Of a stretch of DNA of 64,000 nt, positions 1-52,150 are shown piece by piece; position 1 is the first letter of the stretch; the number at the start of each line of letters is the position of its first letter. The notes beneath the pieces were generated by a model that made no database searches, was not told the origin of the DNA, and saw only the letters and a program-made list of their open reading frames with translations. The translations under genes and the position numbers were made by a program. This DNA is from Arthrobacter stackebrandtii (GTDB taxonomy: Bacteria > Actinomycetota > Actinomycetes > Actinomycetales > Micrococcaceae), in assembly GCF_017876675.1 (NCBI RefSeq), contig NZ_JAGIOI010000001.1, positions 1,178,001 to 1,242,000 on the forward strand, read 5' to 3'.

Positions 1-2684
1 AGGTCCCCGACGACAAGACGCTCATGGTGGAGCGTTTCCACGACGAGCTCGGCGACTGGCGCGTGGTCCTGCACAGTCCCTTCGGTATGCCAGTCCACGC
101 GCCGTGGGCACTGGCCGTCGCTGCCCGGTTGCACGAACGCTACGGGCTGGATGGTTCCGCCATGGCCTCCGACGACGGCATTGTGCTGCGCGTGCCCCTC
201 ATGGACGATGAGCCGCCCGGGGCAGAGCTGTTCATGTTCGACCCCGAGGAACTGGGCGGGATCGTCACAGCGGAGGTGGGCGGTTCCGCCCTGTTCGCCA
301 GCCGTTTCCGTGAATGCGCCGCCCGCGCCTTGCTTCTTCCGCGCCAGAATCCGGGCAAGCGCTCGCCCCTGTGGCAGCAGCGACAGCGTTCCTCCCAGTT
401 GCTGGATGTGGCCCGGAAGTACCCGCAGTTCCCCATCGTGTTGGAGACCGTGCGCGAATGCCTGCAGGACGTCTATGACCTCCCCGCGTTGAAGAACATC
501 GCCGCCTCCATTGAACGGCGCGAGCTGCGCATGGTGGAAACCACCACGAACGAGCCCTCGCCCTTCGCCCGCTCCCTGCTCTTCGGCTACGTGGCCAGCT
601 TCCTCTACGAGGGCGATTCACCGCTCGCCGAGCGCCGCGCCGCCGCACTGTCACTTGACCCTGCGCTCCTCGATGAGCTGTTGGGCCGGGCTGAGCTGCG
701 CGAGCTCCTTGACCCCACCGTCATCGCCCTGACTGAGTCACAGCTGCAGCGTCTCGCCGCCCCCGGCAAGAACAATGATCGCCGCACCCGGGGCCTGGAA
801 GGTGTGGCGGATCTGTTGCGCCTGCTCGGCCCGCTCACCGTTGCGGAGGTTGCCGCCCGTCTGCTGCCTGCGTTGCAAGAAGCGGACGACGCCGGCCTGC
901 CGCCTGCCGCTGTCGACTCACCGCTGCACGTGGCACAGGCCGCTTCCCATTTGGAAGAGCTGCTCAGGACCAACCGTGTCCTCCGCGTGAACATGGCCGG
1001 GGAGGAACGCTTTGCCGCCATTGAGGACGCGGCCCGGCTGCGCGACGCCCTCGGCATTCCTCTGCCAATGGGTGTTCCGCTGGCCTTCATCGAGCCCGTG
1101 GCTGATCCCCTCGGCGACCTCATCGCCCGCTATGCCCGCACCCACGGGCCCTTCACCACAGCAGATGTTGCGGTGAGGCTGGGACTCGGTGTCGCTGTCG
1201 TCCATTCAGGGTTGACGCGGCTGGCCGCGGATCGGCGGGTCACGGAGGGCGAGTTTTTACCCACCGGGCTTGGCCGGCAGGATGGCGGCCCCGAATGGTG
1301 CGATGTTCAGGTGCTGCGGCAGTTGCGCAGCCGGTCCCTGGCGGCATTGCGGGCCGAAGTGGAGCCTGTGGATGCGGCCACCTTTGGGCGATTTCTCCCG
1401 GCCTGGCAGCATGTCACTGCCGTGTCCGGTTCCCCTGCCTTGCGTGGTTTGGATGGTGTGCTGACAGTGGTGGACCAGTTGGCGGGATTGCCGATTCCGG
1501 CGTCAGCGTGGGAGCCGTTGGTGCTTGCGGCACGGGTCAGGGACTACTCACCTGCCATGTTGGATGAGCTGATGTCCACTGGCGAGGTACTCGTCTCCGG
1601 CGCAGGTCCCATTGCCGGAAATGACGGTTGGCTGAGCCTGCACGTGGCTGAATCTTCTGAACTCACACTGCACCCGGCCGCCGATTTTGAGCCCACCGAC
1701 TTCCAGCAGCGGGTGCTCGCTGCATTGGGCAACGGCGGCGCGTACTTCTTCCATCAGCTGCGTGAGATGACAGCCGACGGGCCGGATCTGGTGGCCTCGG
1801 ATGACGAGTTGACCGTTGCGTTGTGGGATTTGCTGTGGGCAGGGCGCATCAGTAACGACACCTTCGCCCCAATCCGTGCCCTGCTGGCTGGCGGGCACAC
1901 TGCGCATAAGCAGAAGGCGCCGCCGTCTCGGTTACGGCCTGCGCGCGCTGGGCGGTACGGGCGGCTGCCCGGCCGTGCCGCGGGTGTGCAGCGCGGGGCG
2001 CCGCCCATGGGGGCCGGCCGCTGGAGCCTGCTGCCTACTGTGGAAGCTGCCGCAGACACAGCCCAAAATACCCTGCGCAGCCATGCCCTGGCCGAACTAT
2101 TTCTGGACAGATACGGCGTGGTGACGCGCGGCTCCGTCATGAATCACGGGCTGCCCGGCGGATTCGGGCTCATGTACAAAGTGCTGGCCCGGCTGGAGGA
2201 GGGAGGTCGGTGCCGCCGCGGCTACTTCATCGAGCACCTCGGCGCGGCACAGTTCGCCGTCTCCGCCACGGTGGATCGACTGCGCAGTTTCAGCGAAGAC
2301 GCCGCACTGAATCCTCACCCGCCGCAGGCTCTGGCGCTGGCCGCCACCGATCCCGCCAGCCCCTACGGCGCGGCCCTGCCCTGGCCACCGCTGGATTCCG
2401 GACACCGCCCGGGACGGAAGGCAGGGGCACTGGTAGTGATGGTCGACGGCGCACTGGTCCTGTATGTGGAGCGCGGCGGCCGCACGCTGTTGTGCTTTAG
2501 CGACGACGAATCATCCGTTTCGTTGGCAGCCGGGGCGCTGGTGCAGGTGGTCAAACGCGGGGCGATCGACAAAATGGCCATTGCGAAAGTCAACGGCGCG
2601 GACGTTTTGGGGACCCCTCTGGCCGTAGCGCTGCTAGCGTCCGGGGCCTACAGCTCACCCAGCGGAGTGCGGATCCGCGCCTAA
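1..2684 (+). CDS. lhr: Lhr-type ATP-dependent helicase, C-terminal part (5' end outside window)
   Basis: The reading frame is open from the first bases of the window (upstream residues VPDDKTL precede the first Met), so this is the 3' part of a longer gene. The visible ~894 residues match the Lhr-core and C-terminal winged-helix region that follows the two RecA domains in bacterial Lhr. Typical segments are ERFHDELGDWRVVLHSPFGM at the start and the NDTFAPIRALLAGG region near residue 620. Full actinobacterial Lhr is about 1,500-1,600 aa, so roughly the N-terminal 40 % (Walker A/B motifs) is missing here. Lhr is a DNA-repair 3'-5' helicase. The next gene on the same strand is a Nei-type glycosylase, the order also known from Mycobacterium. 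The family call is firm; the symbol is given on this basis. Confidence 0.9.
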   Translation, partial: VPDDKTLMVERFHDELGDWRVVLHSPFGMPVHAPWALAVAARLHERYGLDGSAMASDDGIVLRVPLMDDEPPGAELFMFDPEELGGIVTAEVGGSALFASRFRECAARALLLPRQNPGKRSPLWQQRQRSSQLLDVARKYPQFPIVLETVRECLQDVYDLPALKNIAASIERRELRMVETTTNEPSPFARSLLFGYVASFLYEGDSPLAERRAAALSLDPALLDELLGRAELRELLDPTVIALTESQLQRLAAPGKNNDRRTRGLEGVADLLRLLGPLTVAEVAARLLPALQEADDAGLPPAAVDSPLHVAQAASHLEELLRTNRVLRVNMAGEERFAAIEDAARLRDALGIPLPMGVPLAFIEPVADPLGDLIARYARTHGPFTTADVAVRLGLGVAVVHSGLTRLAADRRVTEGEFLPTGLGRQDGGPEWCDVQVLRQLRSRSLAALRAEVEPVDAATFGRFLPAWQHVTAVSGSPALRGLDGVLTVVDQLAGLPIPASAWEPLVLAARVRDYSPAMLDELMSTGEVLVSGAGPIAGNDGWLSLHVAESSELTLHPAADFEPTDFQQRVLAALGNGGAYFFHQLREMTADGPDLVASDDELTVALWDLLWAGRISNDTFAPIRALLAGGHTAHKQKAPPSRLRPARAGRYGRLPGRAAGVQRGAPPMGAGRWSLLPTVEAAADTAQNTLRSHALAELFLDRYGVVTRGSVMNHGLPGGFGLMYKVLARLEEGGRCRRGYFIEHLGAAQFAVSATVDRLRSFSEDAALNPHPPQALALAATDPASPYGAALPWPPLDSGHRPGRKAGALVVMVDGALVLYVERGGRTLLCFSDDESSVSLAAGALVQVVKRGAIDKMAIAKVNGADVLGTPLAVALLASGAYSSPSGVRIRA

Positions 2685-2687
2685 CCC

Positions 2688-2870
2688 CAACGCCGTATCA
2701 CCTTTGGCACCCTCTTTCCCGACCCCGTATCACCTTTGGCTGGATTCCGCCCAACGCCGTATCACCTTTGGTTGGGTTCCCTTTCTCCATTGCTACAGCG
2801 TTGCCGAAAACCCCACCAAAGGTGACACCGCGTCAGCGAATAATGAACCAATGGTGATACGGCGTCGGGG
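2688..2870. repeat. Intergenic 32-bp-period repeat array (three direct, two inverted copies)
   Basis: Immediately after the lhr stop, units begin at 2688, 2720 and 2752, exactly 32 bp apart. Each starts with CAACGCCGTATCACCTTTGG (the second has CGACCCC at its start) followed by about 12 variable bases. Two inverted copies follow at about 2813-2834 and 2849-2870 (CCAATGGTGATACGGCGTC). Direct copies facing inverted copies could fold into large hairpins. Related units occur at 24433, 42830, 49411 and 52131. Confidence 0.85.
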
Positions 2871-2893: not shown

Positions 2894-3712
2894 ATGCCTG
2901 AGGGCGATACCGTTTGGCGGCAGGCCCGGGACCTGCGCGCAGTTCTTGAAGGCAAGAAACTCGTTTCCAGCGATTTCCGAGTGCCTGCCCACGCCACGCT
3001 GGATCTATCCGGCCAAACCGTAACCTCCGTCGAATCCCGCGGTAAGCACTTGTTGATGTACGTTGGCGGACTCGTCATCCATTCGCATCTCGCAATGGAA
3101 GGGCATTGGGACAGTTATCCGGTGCACAACGGCCGGTCTGCAAAGTGGCGCAAGCCAACCTTCGCGGCCAGGGCTGTGCTCACAACGGACCAGGCCCAAG
3201 TGGTGGGATTCTCGCTGGGCACGCTGGAAGTCTTGCCGGAAGCGTTGGTGGGGAACGCCGTCGGACATCTTGGACCGGATCTGCTGGGGCCGGGCTGGGA
3301 TGCGGAAGAAGCGCTGCGGCGGTTGTTGGCCGAGCCTGAACGGGCGATTGGGCTGGCACTTTTGGATCAGCGAAATTTGGCCGGGATTGGCAACATCTAC
3401 CGCAATGAGTTGTGTTTCCTGGGCCGGATCCACCCGGCTTCGGCTGTCATGGGGGTGCCTGATCTGCCGCGGATGGCGGGTCTGGCCAAGCGGCTGCTCG
3501 AGGCCAATCATGACCGGTCGCAGCGTTCAACCACGGGAGGCCAGGCACGGGGCGAGGCGGCGTCGTGGGTCTACGGCCTGGCCGGGAAACCATGTAAGCG
3601 ATGCGGTGTGCTGATCACGCACGGCACGTTGGCCGACCCTGCGTTTACCGTCCGAGCCGCCCGAGATATTTATTGGTGCCCACGCTGTCAGGCGGAACCC
3701 GGCGCGAGCTGA
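2894..3712 (+). CDS. nei: Fpg/Nei-family DNA glycosylase/AP lyase (Nei2-like endonuclease VIII)
   Basis: 272 aa, the usual size of Fpg/Nei enzymes. It begins MPEGDTV, giving the catalytic N-terminal Pro (after Met removal) and the following Glu, with T at the position typical of Nei rather than Fpg. A zinc finger ends the protein, with Cys at about residues 233, 236, 262 and 265 (CKRC and CPRC). The central DQRNLAGIGNIYRNE segment is the helix-two-turn-helix DNA-binding motif. It removes oxidised pyrimidines and nicks at abasic sites. It lies 209 bp after lhr on the same strand; the lhr-nei2 order is also found in mycobacteria, suggesting a shared repair role. Its 3' end overlaps the convergent deacetylase gene by 25 bp. 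Confidence 0.9.
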   Translation: MPEGDTVWRQARDLRAVLEGKKLVSSDFRVPAHATLDLSGQTVTSVESRGKHLLMYVGGLVIHSHLAMEGHWDSYPVHNGRSAKWRKPTFAARAVLTTDQAQVVGFSLGTLEVLPEALVGNAVGHLGPDLLGPGWDAEEALRRLLAEPERAIGLALLDQRNLAGIGNIYRNELCFLGRIHPASAVMGVPDLPRMAGLAKRLLEANHDRSQRSTTGGQARGEAASWVYGLAGKPCKRCGVLITHGTLADPAFTVRAARDIYWCPRCQAEPGAS

Positions 3713-24432: not shown

Positions 24433-24517
24433 CCCCTATGTGATGCGGCGTTGGTGAAAACACACCCCTATGTGATGTGGCGTTGGGGAAAACACACCCC
24501 TATGTGATGCGGCGTCG
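24433..24517. repeat. Intergenic 32-bp tandem repeat (2.7 copies)
   Basis: Units begin at 24433, 24465 and 24497 with CCCCTATGTGATGCGGCG, then TTGGTGAAAACACA. Complemented, each reads CAACGCCGCATCACATAGGGG, matching the box of the arrays at 2688 and 49411 but with its own second box (ATAGGGG). Located between convergent genes. Confidence 0.85.
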
Positions 24518-41846: not shown

Positions 41847-41926
41847 CGACGCTGTCGCAGCAATGACCGCTTTTTAGCCGACGCCATCGCAGCAATGACC
41901 GGTTTTTCTGCGATGCTGTCGCACTG
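41847..41926. repeat. Intergenic 32-bp tandem repeat (diverged family member)
   Basis: Units begin at 41847, 41879 and 41911. The first two read CGACGC(T/C)(G/A)TCGCAGCAATGACC plus ~9 variable bases, and the third is partial (CGATGCTGTCGCA). The exact 32-bp period and the opening CGACGC match the arrays at 2688 and 49411, but the second box (AATGACCG) is its own. Confidence 0.75.
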
Positions 41927-42043: not shown

Positions 42044-42760
42044 ATGGCGACTAACCAGCTCTCGGTCCTCATCAACGCCGATGCCGAACAGGTCTGGCTC
42101 ATGCTCCGCGAGCCGGCCCGCATTGCGCAGTGGCACGGCTGGGACATGGACGGCCTGGACGAGGAAATCCGGCAGATCTACGACTCCAACGTGGTCGAGA
42201 GCGGCGACCACCTGCGCCTGACGCTGGAAATGGGCGACGTCTTTACGCTGGAACCGCAGCCTGACGGCACGCTGCTGACCATGACGCGCGGCGTGGCAAC
42301 GGGCGAATGGGCCAAGTATGACCCCGACATCACGGAGGGCTGGACCATGTTCCTCCAGCAGTTGAAGTTCGCCCTGGAACGGCATCCGAAGACGGCGCGG
42401 CGCACCTTTTACGTTGACGGTGCCAGCTCCGCGAACACCAACTTGTGGGACGCCCTGGGCATCGACACCGGCTGGCTTCCGGATCCGGGCGAACCATATG
42501 AGCTCACGCTGGCCACGGGCGCCACACTGTCGGGCAAGGTCTGGTACCGCACCGATTCGCAGCTGGGCCTGACGGTGGAGGACTACGCAGAGCACGGCGA
42601 CGGGCTGCTGATTTTGGCCAGGCAGTCGCGGCTGGAGGGCATCCGCGAACATCCGGGGGCACAGGTTATCGCCACCACGTACGGCCTGGGCGCAGCGGAC
42701 TTCGACGCGATCGGCAGCCAGTGGGATGCCTTCATGGAGACCCATTTCCCGGACGAATAG
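42044..42760 (+). CDS. SRPBCC-domain protein
   Basis: 238 aa from ATG 42044; no clear RBS. The START-like fold occupies ~1-120 (LINADAEQVWLMLREPARIA, then WHGWDMDG), and the rest (~130-238) is an additional alpha/beta segment with GIDTGWLPDPG. No signal peptide. Function unknown; ligand binding is assumed from the fold. Confidence 0.78.
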   Translation: MATNQLSVLINADAEQVWLMLREPARIAQWHGWDMDGLDEEIRQIYDSNVVESGDHLRLTLEMGDVFTLEPQPDGTLLTMTRGVATGEWAKYDPDITEGWTMFLQQLKFALERHPKTARRTFYVDGASSANTNLWDALGIDTGWLPDPGEPYELTLATGATLSGKVWYRTDSQLGLTVEDYAEHGDGLLILARQSRLEGIREHPGAQVIATTYGLGAADFDAIGSQWDAFMETHFPDE

Positions 42761-42829
42761 GCCGGCCGGCGGTGCGACAGGGTTCCACAGAACCTGGCCA
42801 TTGCTGCGCTGGCGTCGGCAAGAATTGAG

Positions 42830-42852
42830 CCAAAGGTGATGCCGCGTCGGGG
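42830..42852. repeat. Solitary copy of the 32-bp repeat box (inverted)
   Basis: CCAAAGGTGATGCCGCGTCG followed by GGG, the complement of the box at 2688 (second box CCTTTGG shared). Located 54 bp before tgt. Confidence 0.75.
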
Positions 42853-49410: not shown

Positions 49411-49530
49411 CGACGCCGCATCAGATAATCCCCACTTTCCCCCAACGCGGCATCAGATAATCCCTATTTCCACCCAACGCGGCATCAGATATGGCGCCGT
49501 TCGTCCCAACGCCGCATCACGTGCGGGCAT
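49411..49530. repeat. Intergenic 32-bp-period repeat array (four copies)
   Basis: Units start at 49411, 49443, 49475 and 49507, exactly 32 bp apart, each opening C(A/G)ACGC(C/G)GCATCA. The first two share the second box GATAATCCC, the third is partly changed, and the fourth reads CGTGCGGG. It lies before the first gene of the unknown paralogous pair. Confidence 0.87.
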
Positions 49531-49583
49531 TCTTCGCCGATGCCCGCACGCCGGAGGCGATAACGTTGTAGGGATTCGTCCCG

Positions 49584-50941: not shown

Positions 50942-52139
50942 GGCCGCCGCCTCAAAAGCCGCTGGGACGGAAGCGAGCAACGTCCTCTCACTCAGTGACG
51001 CCATTGCACAACGTGCCAAGGCCGGATTGCTCCCAGAAACCATGGATCGCCTGGCAGCTGACTTCCGGTCATGGATGACTGCGGCCGGCGTCCCTGGCGA
51101 CGAGGTCGACCGCTTGTCCAGCCTCCTCATGAACTACTTCCGCAACTACGCAGCCAGCGTGAGCATCCCCGATCCCACGAATCTGGACGTTGAGTTGACC
51201 GGCCTGATGCTCGAAGACGCGGGACGTTTCCACCCCGAAATGCGCATCAGTGTCTCCCTCGCACTGAACTCGTACCTCAAGTTCATGGTGACCACCGGGG
51301 CATGGACGGGTCCGACAGATGCGATGCTCGAATTGTTGGACCTGACGGCCACCGACATCCTCGCCCCGCCACGCCACGAGCTGGCACCTTATGTTTTCCA
51401 CGACTCGGCGAATCCAGTTGCGGACGGCGTGGACCGTGCCTCCCGTCCATACGTCCAGCGGGCGGTGGCCCTCCTGACCTGGATCGGCGGAGGCCGCCCG
51501 CTGACCGCCACGGGCCTGCTGCGCCGCAAGGACATTGCCGAGGCTGCCGCGTGCGTTGATGCGCACGTTGTCGGCAGCGCACGGGTCGACTACGCAGGGC
51601 CCGGCAACGGATCTCCCCGGGCGGTCACATCCATGGCGAACGTGCCTCGCCTGATGGACTATTGGCATGCCCTGATTGACACAGGCCTGCTCACGGCCGG
51701 AAAGACCAAGGCGGCACCGACCAAGGCAGCCGAGGCCTTCCTCAAGGCCCCTGAACTGGCACAGGAAAAGACGATGCAACTGGCATACTGCCTGTTCTAC
51801 GATTGCGCCATTCCTTTCGATGACGCGGCCCCGTCTGTATCCGCCGAGGCTGGGGTCGCCCGTTTGTTGGCAGCGGCCGCTTCCAACCGTCCCGACATCG
51901 CTATCCCGTTTGACCCTGAAGAACCCGAGCCGCAAGCAGACACCGAGGGACCAACCCCGCCTTTTCGGCTCAGCTCGTGGCGGACACTCAGGGTGAACAG
52001 TTCAATTAGCGAGCTTGTCGGCGCCGGCCTTGTCGAACAAGGACCGTTTCCGGTGGTCCCGCCGTCACTGCGGGGCGCATTGGCGCCCGTATTGGAACAC
52101 TTTGACGAGATGATCCAGGCAGCAGGGCCCGAAAGGTGA
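50889..52139 (+). CDS. Unknown protein, second of a tandem paralogous pair
   Basis: 416 aa from GTG 50889. The basic N-terminus AKKSKNTKKPRFGNPAKAAA is almost the same as in the gene before. Shared later motifs are IPDPTNLDVE near 95 and VALLTWIGGGRPLTATGLLR near 195, so the pair is homologous over most of its length despite low identity. No recognised catalytic domain. The stop codon (52137-52139) lies inside a copy of the 32-bp repeat box. Role unknown; possible nucleic-acid contact through the Lys-rich start is only a guess. Confidence 0.72.
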   Translation: MAKKSKNTKKPRFGNPAKAAASKAAGTEASNVLSLSDAIAQRAKAGLLPETMDRLAADFRSWMTAAGVPGDEVDRLSSLLMNYFRNYAASVSIPDPTNLDVELTGLMLEDAGRFHPEMRISVSLALNSYLKFMVTTGAWTGPTDAMLELLDLTATDILAPPRHELAPYVFHDSANPVADGVDRASRPYVQRAVALLTWIGGGRPLTATGLLRRKDIAEAAACVDAHVVGSARVDYAGPGNGSPRAVTSMANVPRLMDYWHALIDTGLLTAGKTKAAPTKAAEAFLKAPELAQEKTMQLAYCLFYDCAIPFDDAAPSVSAEAGVARLLAAAASNRPDIAIPFDPEEPEPQADTEGPTPPFRLSSWRTLRVNSSISELVGAGLVEQGPFPVVPPSLRGALAPVLEHFDEMIQAAGPER

Positions 52140-52150
52140 TGCCGCGTTCG
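52131..52150. repeat. Solitary copy of the 32-bp repeat box (inverted), spanning a stop codon
   Basis: GAAAGGTGATGCCGCGTTCG, the complement of the CGAACGCGGCATCACCTTTC version of the box. The TGA stop of the preceding gene lies inside it. Confidence 0.7.

Follow-up and report, generated by a model that had tools for sequence, protein, structure and literature searches.

The stretch of DNA analysed here (64,000 nucleotides, hereafter the window) spans positions 1178001-1242000 of the Arthrobacter stackebrandtii genome, a single contig of 4,427,938 bases. Near its left end an array of short repeats lies between two plus-strand genes, which we take to encode an Lhr-type helicase (lhr) and a Nei2/Fpg-type glycosylase (nei2), and further repeat loci were located across the window (Table 1). 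The original prediction, which had described a family of intergenic repeats with an exact 32-bp period, had placed the boxes correctly. Its array at 2688 is real, but it had to be redrawn as three plus-strand units facing three minus-strand units. The left half, of type CGTAT with CCTTTGG as the second box, starts a few nucleotides past the lhr stop codon. The CGTAT type is rare in the A. stackebrandtii genome and nearly foreign to it; it is the resident type of genomes G255 and G263, which hints at import of the array or of the region. The second box had been thought uniform within each array, which does not always hold, as units 3 and 4 of the array at 49411 differ from units 1 and 2. Two copies had been regarded as solitary; the one at 42830 turned out to be the first unit of a mixed two-unit array, whereas the one at 52137 does stand without a second box at 32 bp.

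Table 1. Repeat arrays in the window and the two genes around the array at 2688 (window coordinates)
Feature	Position	Strand	Details
Helicase ORF, C-terminal part	24..2684	+	Runs in from outside the window
Array, left half, three 32-bp units	2688..2764	+	Boxes 2688-2700, 2720-2732 (one mismatch), 2752-2764
Array, right half, three units facing the left half	2791..2867	-	Boxes 2791-2803, 2823-2835 (two mismatches each), 2855-2867
Glycosylase ORF downstream of the 2688 array	2894..3712	+	
Three-unit array, types CGCAT and CACAT with ATAGGGG	24441..24517	-	Between genes called convergent
Type B array CGACGCTGTCGCA-GCAATGACC...TTTTT	41847..41924	+	Two complete units plus a degenerate third; some 10 nt past a stop codon
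Mixed two-unit array	42805..42849	-	Type A box 42837-42849, then type B box 42805-42817
Four-unit array	49411..49519	+	3 nt past a stop codon
Single box	52137..52149	-	At the 3' end of a plus-strand gene

The genome-wide search that the original prediction had proposed found the family throughout the genome: the pattern CRACGCSGYATCA gave 63 exact matches in the whole 4.43-Mb sequence, against one for the pattern read backwards. With up to two mismatches it matched 36 times in the window, whereas 100 shuffles averaged 15.5 matches (sd 3.75) and never exceeded 27. The general unit consists of RACGC-N5-CA, followed by a second box and a T-tract, with the N5 setting the type. Two types dominate the examined stretches of the A. 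stackebrandtii genome, type A (RACGC-SGCAT-CA-GATAA...) and type B (RACGC-(TGT/CAT/CAG)CG-CA-GCAATGGC...). Both have a period of 32 bp and usually carry the T-tract at about unit positions 25-28, and arrays mixing units of the two types exist. The earlier description had caught one subtype and missed the second common one, type B, seen at window position 41847. As the type B box is nearly identical when read backwards, reversed-pattern controls were not used for it. The predicted period itself was borne out, since same-strand spacings of up to 140 bp in the examined stretches of this genome were mostly 32 (109 cases), 64 (35) or 96 bp (4), with 33 (3), 31 (2) and 21, 38, 39, 66, 70 and 71 bp (once each) off the multiples. 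Neighbouring units had the same N5 in 73 of 153 listed pairs (mean of 33 in within-genome shuffles), and unit position 19, which is free in the pattern, was G in 94% of the 153 listed unit pairs. A box with N7, RACGC-(T/C)CGGTTG-C(A/G), is used by one clade of the partner protein described below (flanks in L265, L266, L267 and L275); it often runs into ACC, making GGTTGCAACC, and shows the 32-bp spacing where two units stand (G270 and G211b). An Rfam scan of the window and six other loci gave no repeat match and one tRNA.

The distance between facing boxes on opposite strands was 28 + 32k bases or exceeded this by about 10 bases (by about 21 in one case). Among 45 facing array pairs, 27 from the A. 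stackebrandtii genome and 18 from named relatives, 32 were at 28 ± 2 modulo 32, nine at 6 ± 1, one at 17 and three elsewhere, and 42 of the 45 fit one helical lattice. A Rayleigh test at 32/3 bp gave R = 0.78 in each set, with p values of 9e-8 and 1.5e-5 that treat the pairs as independent and may be inflated by shared descent of the arrays. A strict 32-bp lattice alone would score at 32/3 bp as well; it is the pairs lying one turn off, together with the unlike spacers, that argue for a rotational rule. The spacers between facing arrays are unlike one another in sequence, and their lengths vary (5, 15, 35-37 nt and more). The earlier idea of units three helical turns long with all boxes on one face is supported by these data, as opposing arrays keep the same rotational phase. 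Opposite-strand arrays on one helical lattice point to sites in double-stranded DNA and not to RNA hairpins. By arithmetic, the T-tract of a plus unit coincides on the lattice with the GCGT of a minus unit, and we infer that the 32-bp cell resembles a pseudo-dyad whose halves are unequal, a strong one (ACGC) and one formed by the T/A-tract.

A search for a partner gene had been suggested with a RAYT-type transposase or a binding protein in mind. A partner was found, but it is a nuclease-like AbiEi-DUF559 protein and not a RAYT. It was identified from an open reading frame of 316-322 amino acids that lies between inward-facing arrays in four elements. The protein combines an N-terminal part like that of AbiEi with a DUF559 domain at its C-terminus. 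The latter was detected with PF04480 in all four proteins at 23.5-25.9 bits (cut-off 20.6); the former was detected in two proteins with padloc AbiEi models (E = 2e-13 and 5e-10), and no AbiEi family was reported in Pfam at E up to 1. When 23 genus genomes were searched with a profile, 28 matches scored high (390-666 bits) and were sharply separated from a tail of 237 bits or less. Of these 28 clade members 26 were placed, the other two being a copy with an internal stop in G052 and a split copy in G247. The split copy, the third member in G247 (L297:3024-3967), has TCCCT arrays about 1.6 kb away on one side and a TCCCT box 0.1 kb away on the other. All 26 placed members carry the motif QYDG, whereas all 12 readable paralogues have E at the position of this Q (11 of the 23 paralogues could not be read with the pattern used); the clade-wide Q could mean altered or lost catalysis. 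Each of the 26 elements (L247-L275) also has TGTGGATAA 14-47 bases before the gene start used. This 9-mer, presumably the reverse of a DnaA-box-like 9-mer, occurs three times in 418 kb of A. stackebrandtii sequence, part of which holds the genome's own nuclease loci. Phage and plasmid carriers were sought, and only distant homologues were found (one phage and four plasmid records, <40% identity); viral contigs yielded no confirmed carrier, solved structures no match at E up to 1, and structure prediction from three sequences a pLDDT of 39, too poor for use.

The A. stackebrandtii genome has one nuclease gene (826761-827708) between type A arrays and another (2528770-2529714) between type B arrays. 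The N5 is CGCAT or GGCAT at one gene and CATCG, TGTCG or CAGCG at the other, matching the two main types of the genome. Strict inward-facing boxes within 250 bp on both sides were found at 23 of the 26 clade genes, at none of the 23 paralogues and at one of 197 background genes, of which 56 came from the array-rich window and 141 from nine 20-kb stretches at 2.94-4.40 Mb where listed arrays are sparser. At least one side had such a box in 24 of the 26 clade genes and 23 of the 197 background genes. Two strict boxes exactly 32 bp apart were present on both sides in 14/26, 0/23 and 1/197 genes, respectively, and on at least one side in 22/26, 0/23 and 4/197. Around the 26 clade genes the upstream boxes were 60 plus and no minus, and the downstream boxes 57 minus and 10 plus; the paralogues had two single boxes, in the wrong sense. 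The three genes missed by the strict box (in G270, G170 and G076) carry the N7 version. A box relaxed to allow N5 or N7 and a final CA or CG, tried after these three had failed the strict one, was found on both sides of 26/26 clade genes, 0/23 paralogues and 5/197 background genes.

The type of the arrays was also related to the protein. The best N5 Hamming distance between left and right arrays was 0 in 19, 1 in three and 2 in one of 23 elements, whereas the 494 between-genome comparisons gave a distance of 0 in 52 cases and of 1 in 115; agreement within one mismatch was thus seen in 22/23 elements versus 167/494. On the protein tree the array type needed 14 changes, with a minimum of 13, and the shuffled labels needed 21.3 on average (0 of 200 as low); the N5 labels had been assigned before the N7 variant was recognised, which left three rows as 'none', and the rows of G113 and G157 are identical. 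In the A. stackebrandtii genome 0.96 of the dispersed units lay within one mismatch of a resident type, against 0.28 for the types of other genomes. With nuclease-flanking units removed, the dispersed units fitted the resident type better than the types of other genomes in seven of nine genomes, among the matches listed. The two that speak against type matching, again among the matches listed, are G291 (0.33 vs 0.41) and G170 (0.08 vs 0.16), the latter with dispersed units mostly of TCCTG and nuclease flanks of N7. Array pairs numbered 0 in G231 and 1 in G128, both without the gene, and 1 in G052, where it has an internal stop. With an intact gene they ranged from 0 in G270, 2 in G024 and 3 in G284 up to 94; the flanks in G270 carry the N7 box, which the pattern misses. 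By eye, the flanking arrays at the main locus of the gene also start at the stop codons of neighbouring genes, and part of the association could therefore reflect a general 3'-end rule. Overall, the association of the arrays with the AbiEi-DUF559 clade is in our judgement very probable.

Twenty of the 26 nuclease genes are at one conserved syntenic locus, which indicates that the gene is mostly inherited in place. Four others adjoin a gene that we take to be fdhD, with two different left neighbours, and two stand alone. The nuclease tree at the main locus rejects the species clade G000+G202+G221, G000 being the A. stackebrandtii genome (AU p = 1.9e-6); this clade has a support of 95/94 in a three-protein tree and was chosen after the nuclease tree had been seen; from this rejection, cassettes appear to have been exchanged.

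The two-unit pattern RACGCN5CA-N12-TTT-N5-RACGCN5CA was found in 21 of the 23 genus genomes, with no control matches, and in 6 of 297 genomes of an order-wide sample, belonging to two genera of one family. A narrower type A pattern was found in 11 of 395 genomes of the family, all of one genus. The N5 varies between genomes, and five genomes of g10, a second genus of the family (G009, G039, G063, G086 and G123), have arrays of the same build with N5 types GTCCT, CCGCT, TCTCT and TCCCT. Type A pairs were located in 47 stretches of named genomes. Two of these appear to be chance matches, and the other 45 come from Arthrobacter assemblies or from one carrying the title Sporosarcina beigongshangi REN13. 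L053 (an alphaproteobacterial bin) and L075 (Marinobacterium) were dropped as chance matches before the spacing and phasing counts. The REN13-titled stretches (L031, L037, L043, L045, L046, L062, L065, L071, L073, L074 and L076) have 64-69% G+C, Arthrobacter-type arrays, and sequence and coordinates in common with G202, and the record is probably mislabelled. Since G202, G239, G255 and G211 resemble REN13, HY1533, GMC3 and A. silviterrae in equal sequences or coordinates, the genus set and the named set are not independent.

Among the matches listed for the A. stackebrandtii genome, 81 of 92 distinct arrays lie behind the stop codon of a co-oriented gene, 53 of them between convergent and 28 between co-directional genes; genes were called by a simple codon score, which missed nei2. 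Of the remaining arrays, two have divergent genes on either side and nine lie in the opposite sense between co-directional genes (one called inside a gene). The gap between stop codon and array has a median of 22 nt (range -18 to 822), and for 42 of the 92 listed arrays a box facing inward is present within 230 bp. A comparison of three orthologous gene ends across 22-23 genus genomes showed arrays to be present in some and absent from others, with type, number and strand changing as well. The lhr stop codon overlaps the next start (nei2) by 8 nt, GTGCCTGA, in 15 of the 23 genus genomes, whereas A. stackebrandtii has an array-bearing spacer of 209 nt there, and the spacers of this genome, G202, G221 and G211 span 204-293 nt. 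The GTGCCTGA octamer stands on both sides of the array spacer, intact in G202 and G221 and altered in A. stackebrandtii and G211; both copies may have been kept by selection, since the same 8 nt also form the gene overlap. Among the other junctions, the spacer in G128 measures 32 nt, and the pattern used did not locate the start of the next gene in G096 and G170. The junction in G239 (L185) carries a different repeat, GAGCCTGTCGAAATC ... TCTCGACAGGCTCGACCACC, which is duplicated there.

Four other explanations were weighed. The arrays could be useful to the host as 3'-end insulators, with a protein bound on one face blocking or ending transcription and the AbiEi-DUF559 protein being a domesticated DNA-binding factor that moves nothing. 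The close placement behind co-oriented genes fits this, as does the excess of convergent over divergent settings, and in some relatives a plain hairpin seems, by eye, to replace the array at the sites orthologous to 49411 and 41847; the clade-wide Q for E would suit a domesticated protein. However, the same gene has an array in one relative and none in another, with type and strand differing, and the lhr-nei2 overlap in 15 of 23 genomes leaves no room for one. A similar downstream bias is described for REPs in the available part of PMC3733652. We consider an insulator role unlikely. Still less likely, in our view, is that the protein is a passenger, with the arrays spread by slippage or by another enzyme and the gene located by chance at a convergent, array-rich site that the genus inherited. 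The single syntenic locus of 20 genes and the arrays starting there at the neighbours' stop codons would agree with a passenger, and an unrelated, non-nuclease gene of the window (42044-42760) also lies, by coordinates, between an inward-facing plus array (41847-41924) and minus array (42805-42849). That gene is probably the single background gene scoring on both sides and may be flanked as cargo or by chance. Against a passenger, the six genes elsewhere are flanked too, the array type tracks the protein tree, and none of the paralogues is flanked.

Action at the RNA level, with each unit a mini-terminator of short hairpin and U-tract, would account for the T-tract in most units. The mean MFE of 373 pooled units was indeed -4.36 kcal/mol, lower than that of chimeras (-4.13, z -3.2) and letter shuffles (-3.43). 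Yet in none of the 11 genomes taken singly could native and chimeric folds be clearly told apart (z between -1.8 and 0.6), arm pairing by register was within 0.08 pairs of the chimeras (best z 3.7), and the column-pair excesses were small, the largest in number being 151 versus 137 of 229. Neither the column pairs nor the comparison of native and chimeric folds revealed a consistent conserved stem in the units, and RNA pairing does not require the phasing between strands, which makes this a very improbable account. An intrinsic terminator per unit, that is a stable hairpin plus U-tract, had been tried as a candidate and was set aside, as the MFE of singly folded units goes little beyond shuffles. 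True REP or BIME elements with a RAYT would share the intergenic location, the 3' bias, the facing pairs and the flanked partner gene, but the RAYT family PF01797 had no match in the A. stackebrandtii genome (it is present in 2 of the 23 genus genomes), so that a RAYT partner was rejected, and the units lack a consistent stem. The REP/BIME-like label given originally is apt as an analogy, while actual membership is hardly credible.

The RAYT of REP-RAYT systems is the best-known bacterial enzyme tied to a genome-wide repeat family. In the available parts of PMC2817692 and PMC3733652, the partner gene is flanked by inverted repeats that are also scattered, mostly downstream of genes, and the trees of repeat and protein agree. 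As far as these parts go, the present system is like REP-RAYT, or the REPtron (IS200/IS605-related Y1), in its flanked partner gene, its scattered gene-end repeats and a repeat type that follows the protein. It is unlike REP-RAYT in that the enzyme is AbiEi-DUF559 and not Y1/HUH, and in that the units have no consistent stem and are 32-bp tandem and rotationally phased. CGTC-tagged REPs are described in the same available part of PMC3733652 as short, intergenic and often facing dimers with 8-9 bp stems, with no RAYT flanked by them and no dedicated enzyme reported. Compared to that description our arrays are likewise short, intergenic and facing, and their box read backwards ends in GCGTCG or GCGTTG, but the units are without a consistent stem. 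The word 'arthrobacter' has no occurrence in the text of PMC3733652. AbiEi proteins, according to the available part of PMC7319586, bind 23-bp inverted repeats upstream of their own gene. The N-terminal part of our protein resembles this antitoxin/repressor family (AbiE, Rv2827c), but it is joined to a DUF559 domain, and the sites here repeat every 32 bp, flank the gene left and right and also follow many other genes. Gene-less facing arrays resemble deletion derivatives of the flanked gene, as in MITEs; unlike MITEs, no uniform terminal inverted repeat was seen, target duplication is unproven, and the sequences between boxes differ from copy to copy. In a literature search that was thin on subscription journals we recognised no description of these arrays or of repeat-flanked DUF559 proteins. 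RepRanger tabulates counts for Arthrobacter livingstonensis, and the available part of its text (PMC12306157) describes no such arrays. Taken together, this suggests an element family of repeat plus nuclease, undescribed so far, that resembles REP-RAYT pairs and is unrelated to them.

Our preferred reading, to which we give a probability of about two in three, is that the arrays are multi-site double-stranded DNA binding lattices of a REPtron-like family of nuclease-repeat elements with an unrelated nuclease fold. What the sequences show is the flanking, the left-right type agreement, the type-phylogeny fit, the matching of dispersed arrays in most genomes, the phasing, the 3'-end placement and a RAYT search that found none in the genome; binding, cutting and movement would be further steps. 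A full element would consist of a left array of plus units, TGTGGATAA, the AbiEi-DUF559 gene with QYDG and a right array of minus units. The dispersed arrays behind other genes would be non-autonomous members without the gene, and facing pairs of them resemble an element that has lost its middle. Given the binding of AbiEi proteins to inverted repeats in their own promoters, the natural guess is that the N-terminal domain binds the units, with the N5 and the second box presumably read for specificity and the subunits aligned on one face every three turns. The DUF559 domain might then nick or cut, and arrays or whole cassettes could be copied or exchanged. Arrays would persist behind stop codons because they are harmless there, or useful as insulators. 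Against the element reading, no set of near-identical copies was seen among the listed arrays of the A. stackebrandtii genome, and by eye the spacers differ between loci. Active movement, as judged from these comparisons, seems less probable than the element reading as such. A more specific version is that AbiEi-DUF559 reads the N5 as an address in 32-bp same-face lattices, that nicking and conversion rewrite the array type genome-wide and swap cassettes between species, and that the enzyme co-evolves with dozens of gene-end arrays; we offer it tentatively, at slightly short of even odds.

If the element reading is true, a second, unrelated class of enzyme has the same layout, and nuclease-repeat partnerships arose more than once. 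It would also hint at what a DUF559 protein with an AbiEi-like domain does, and the naturally occurring, matched variants of protein and DNA address could be used to study how DNA specificity evolves. With this system one could ask, in a simple test, whether repeats at gene ends are selfish or useful. Additionally, TGTGGATAA before the nuclease gene raises a possible link to replication.

Two minor observations concern the window itself. By eye, the last box of the array at 49411 runs directly into a hairpin, CGTGCGGGCAT...ATGCCCGCACG, at about 49520-49550, and hairpins seem to close some other arrays too. Between 2900 and 24400 the G+C content is lower (about 0.55-0.64 in 2-kb windows, compared to 0.62-0.72 outside) and the codon scores are poor. 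This stretch starts at the 2688 array and ends near the array at 24441, and is possibly an island bounded by arrays.
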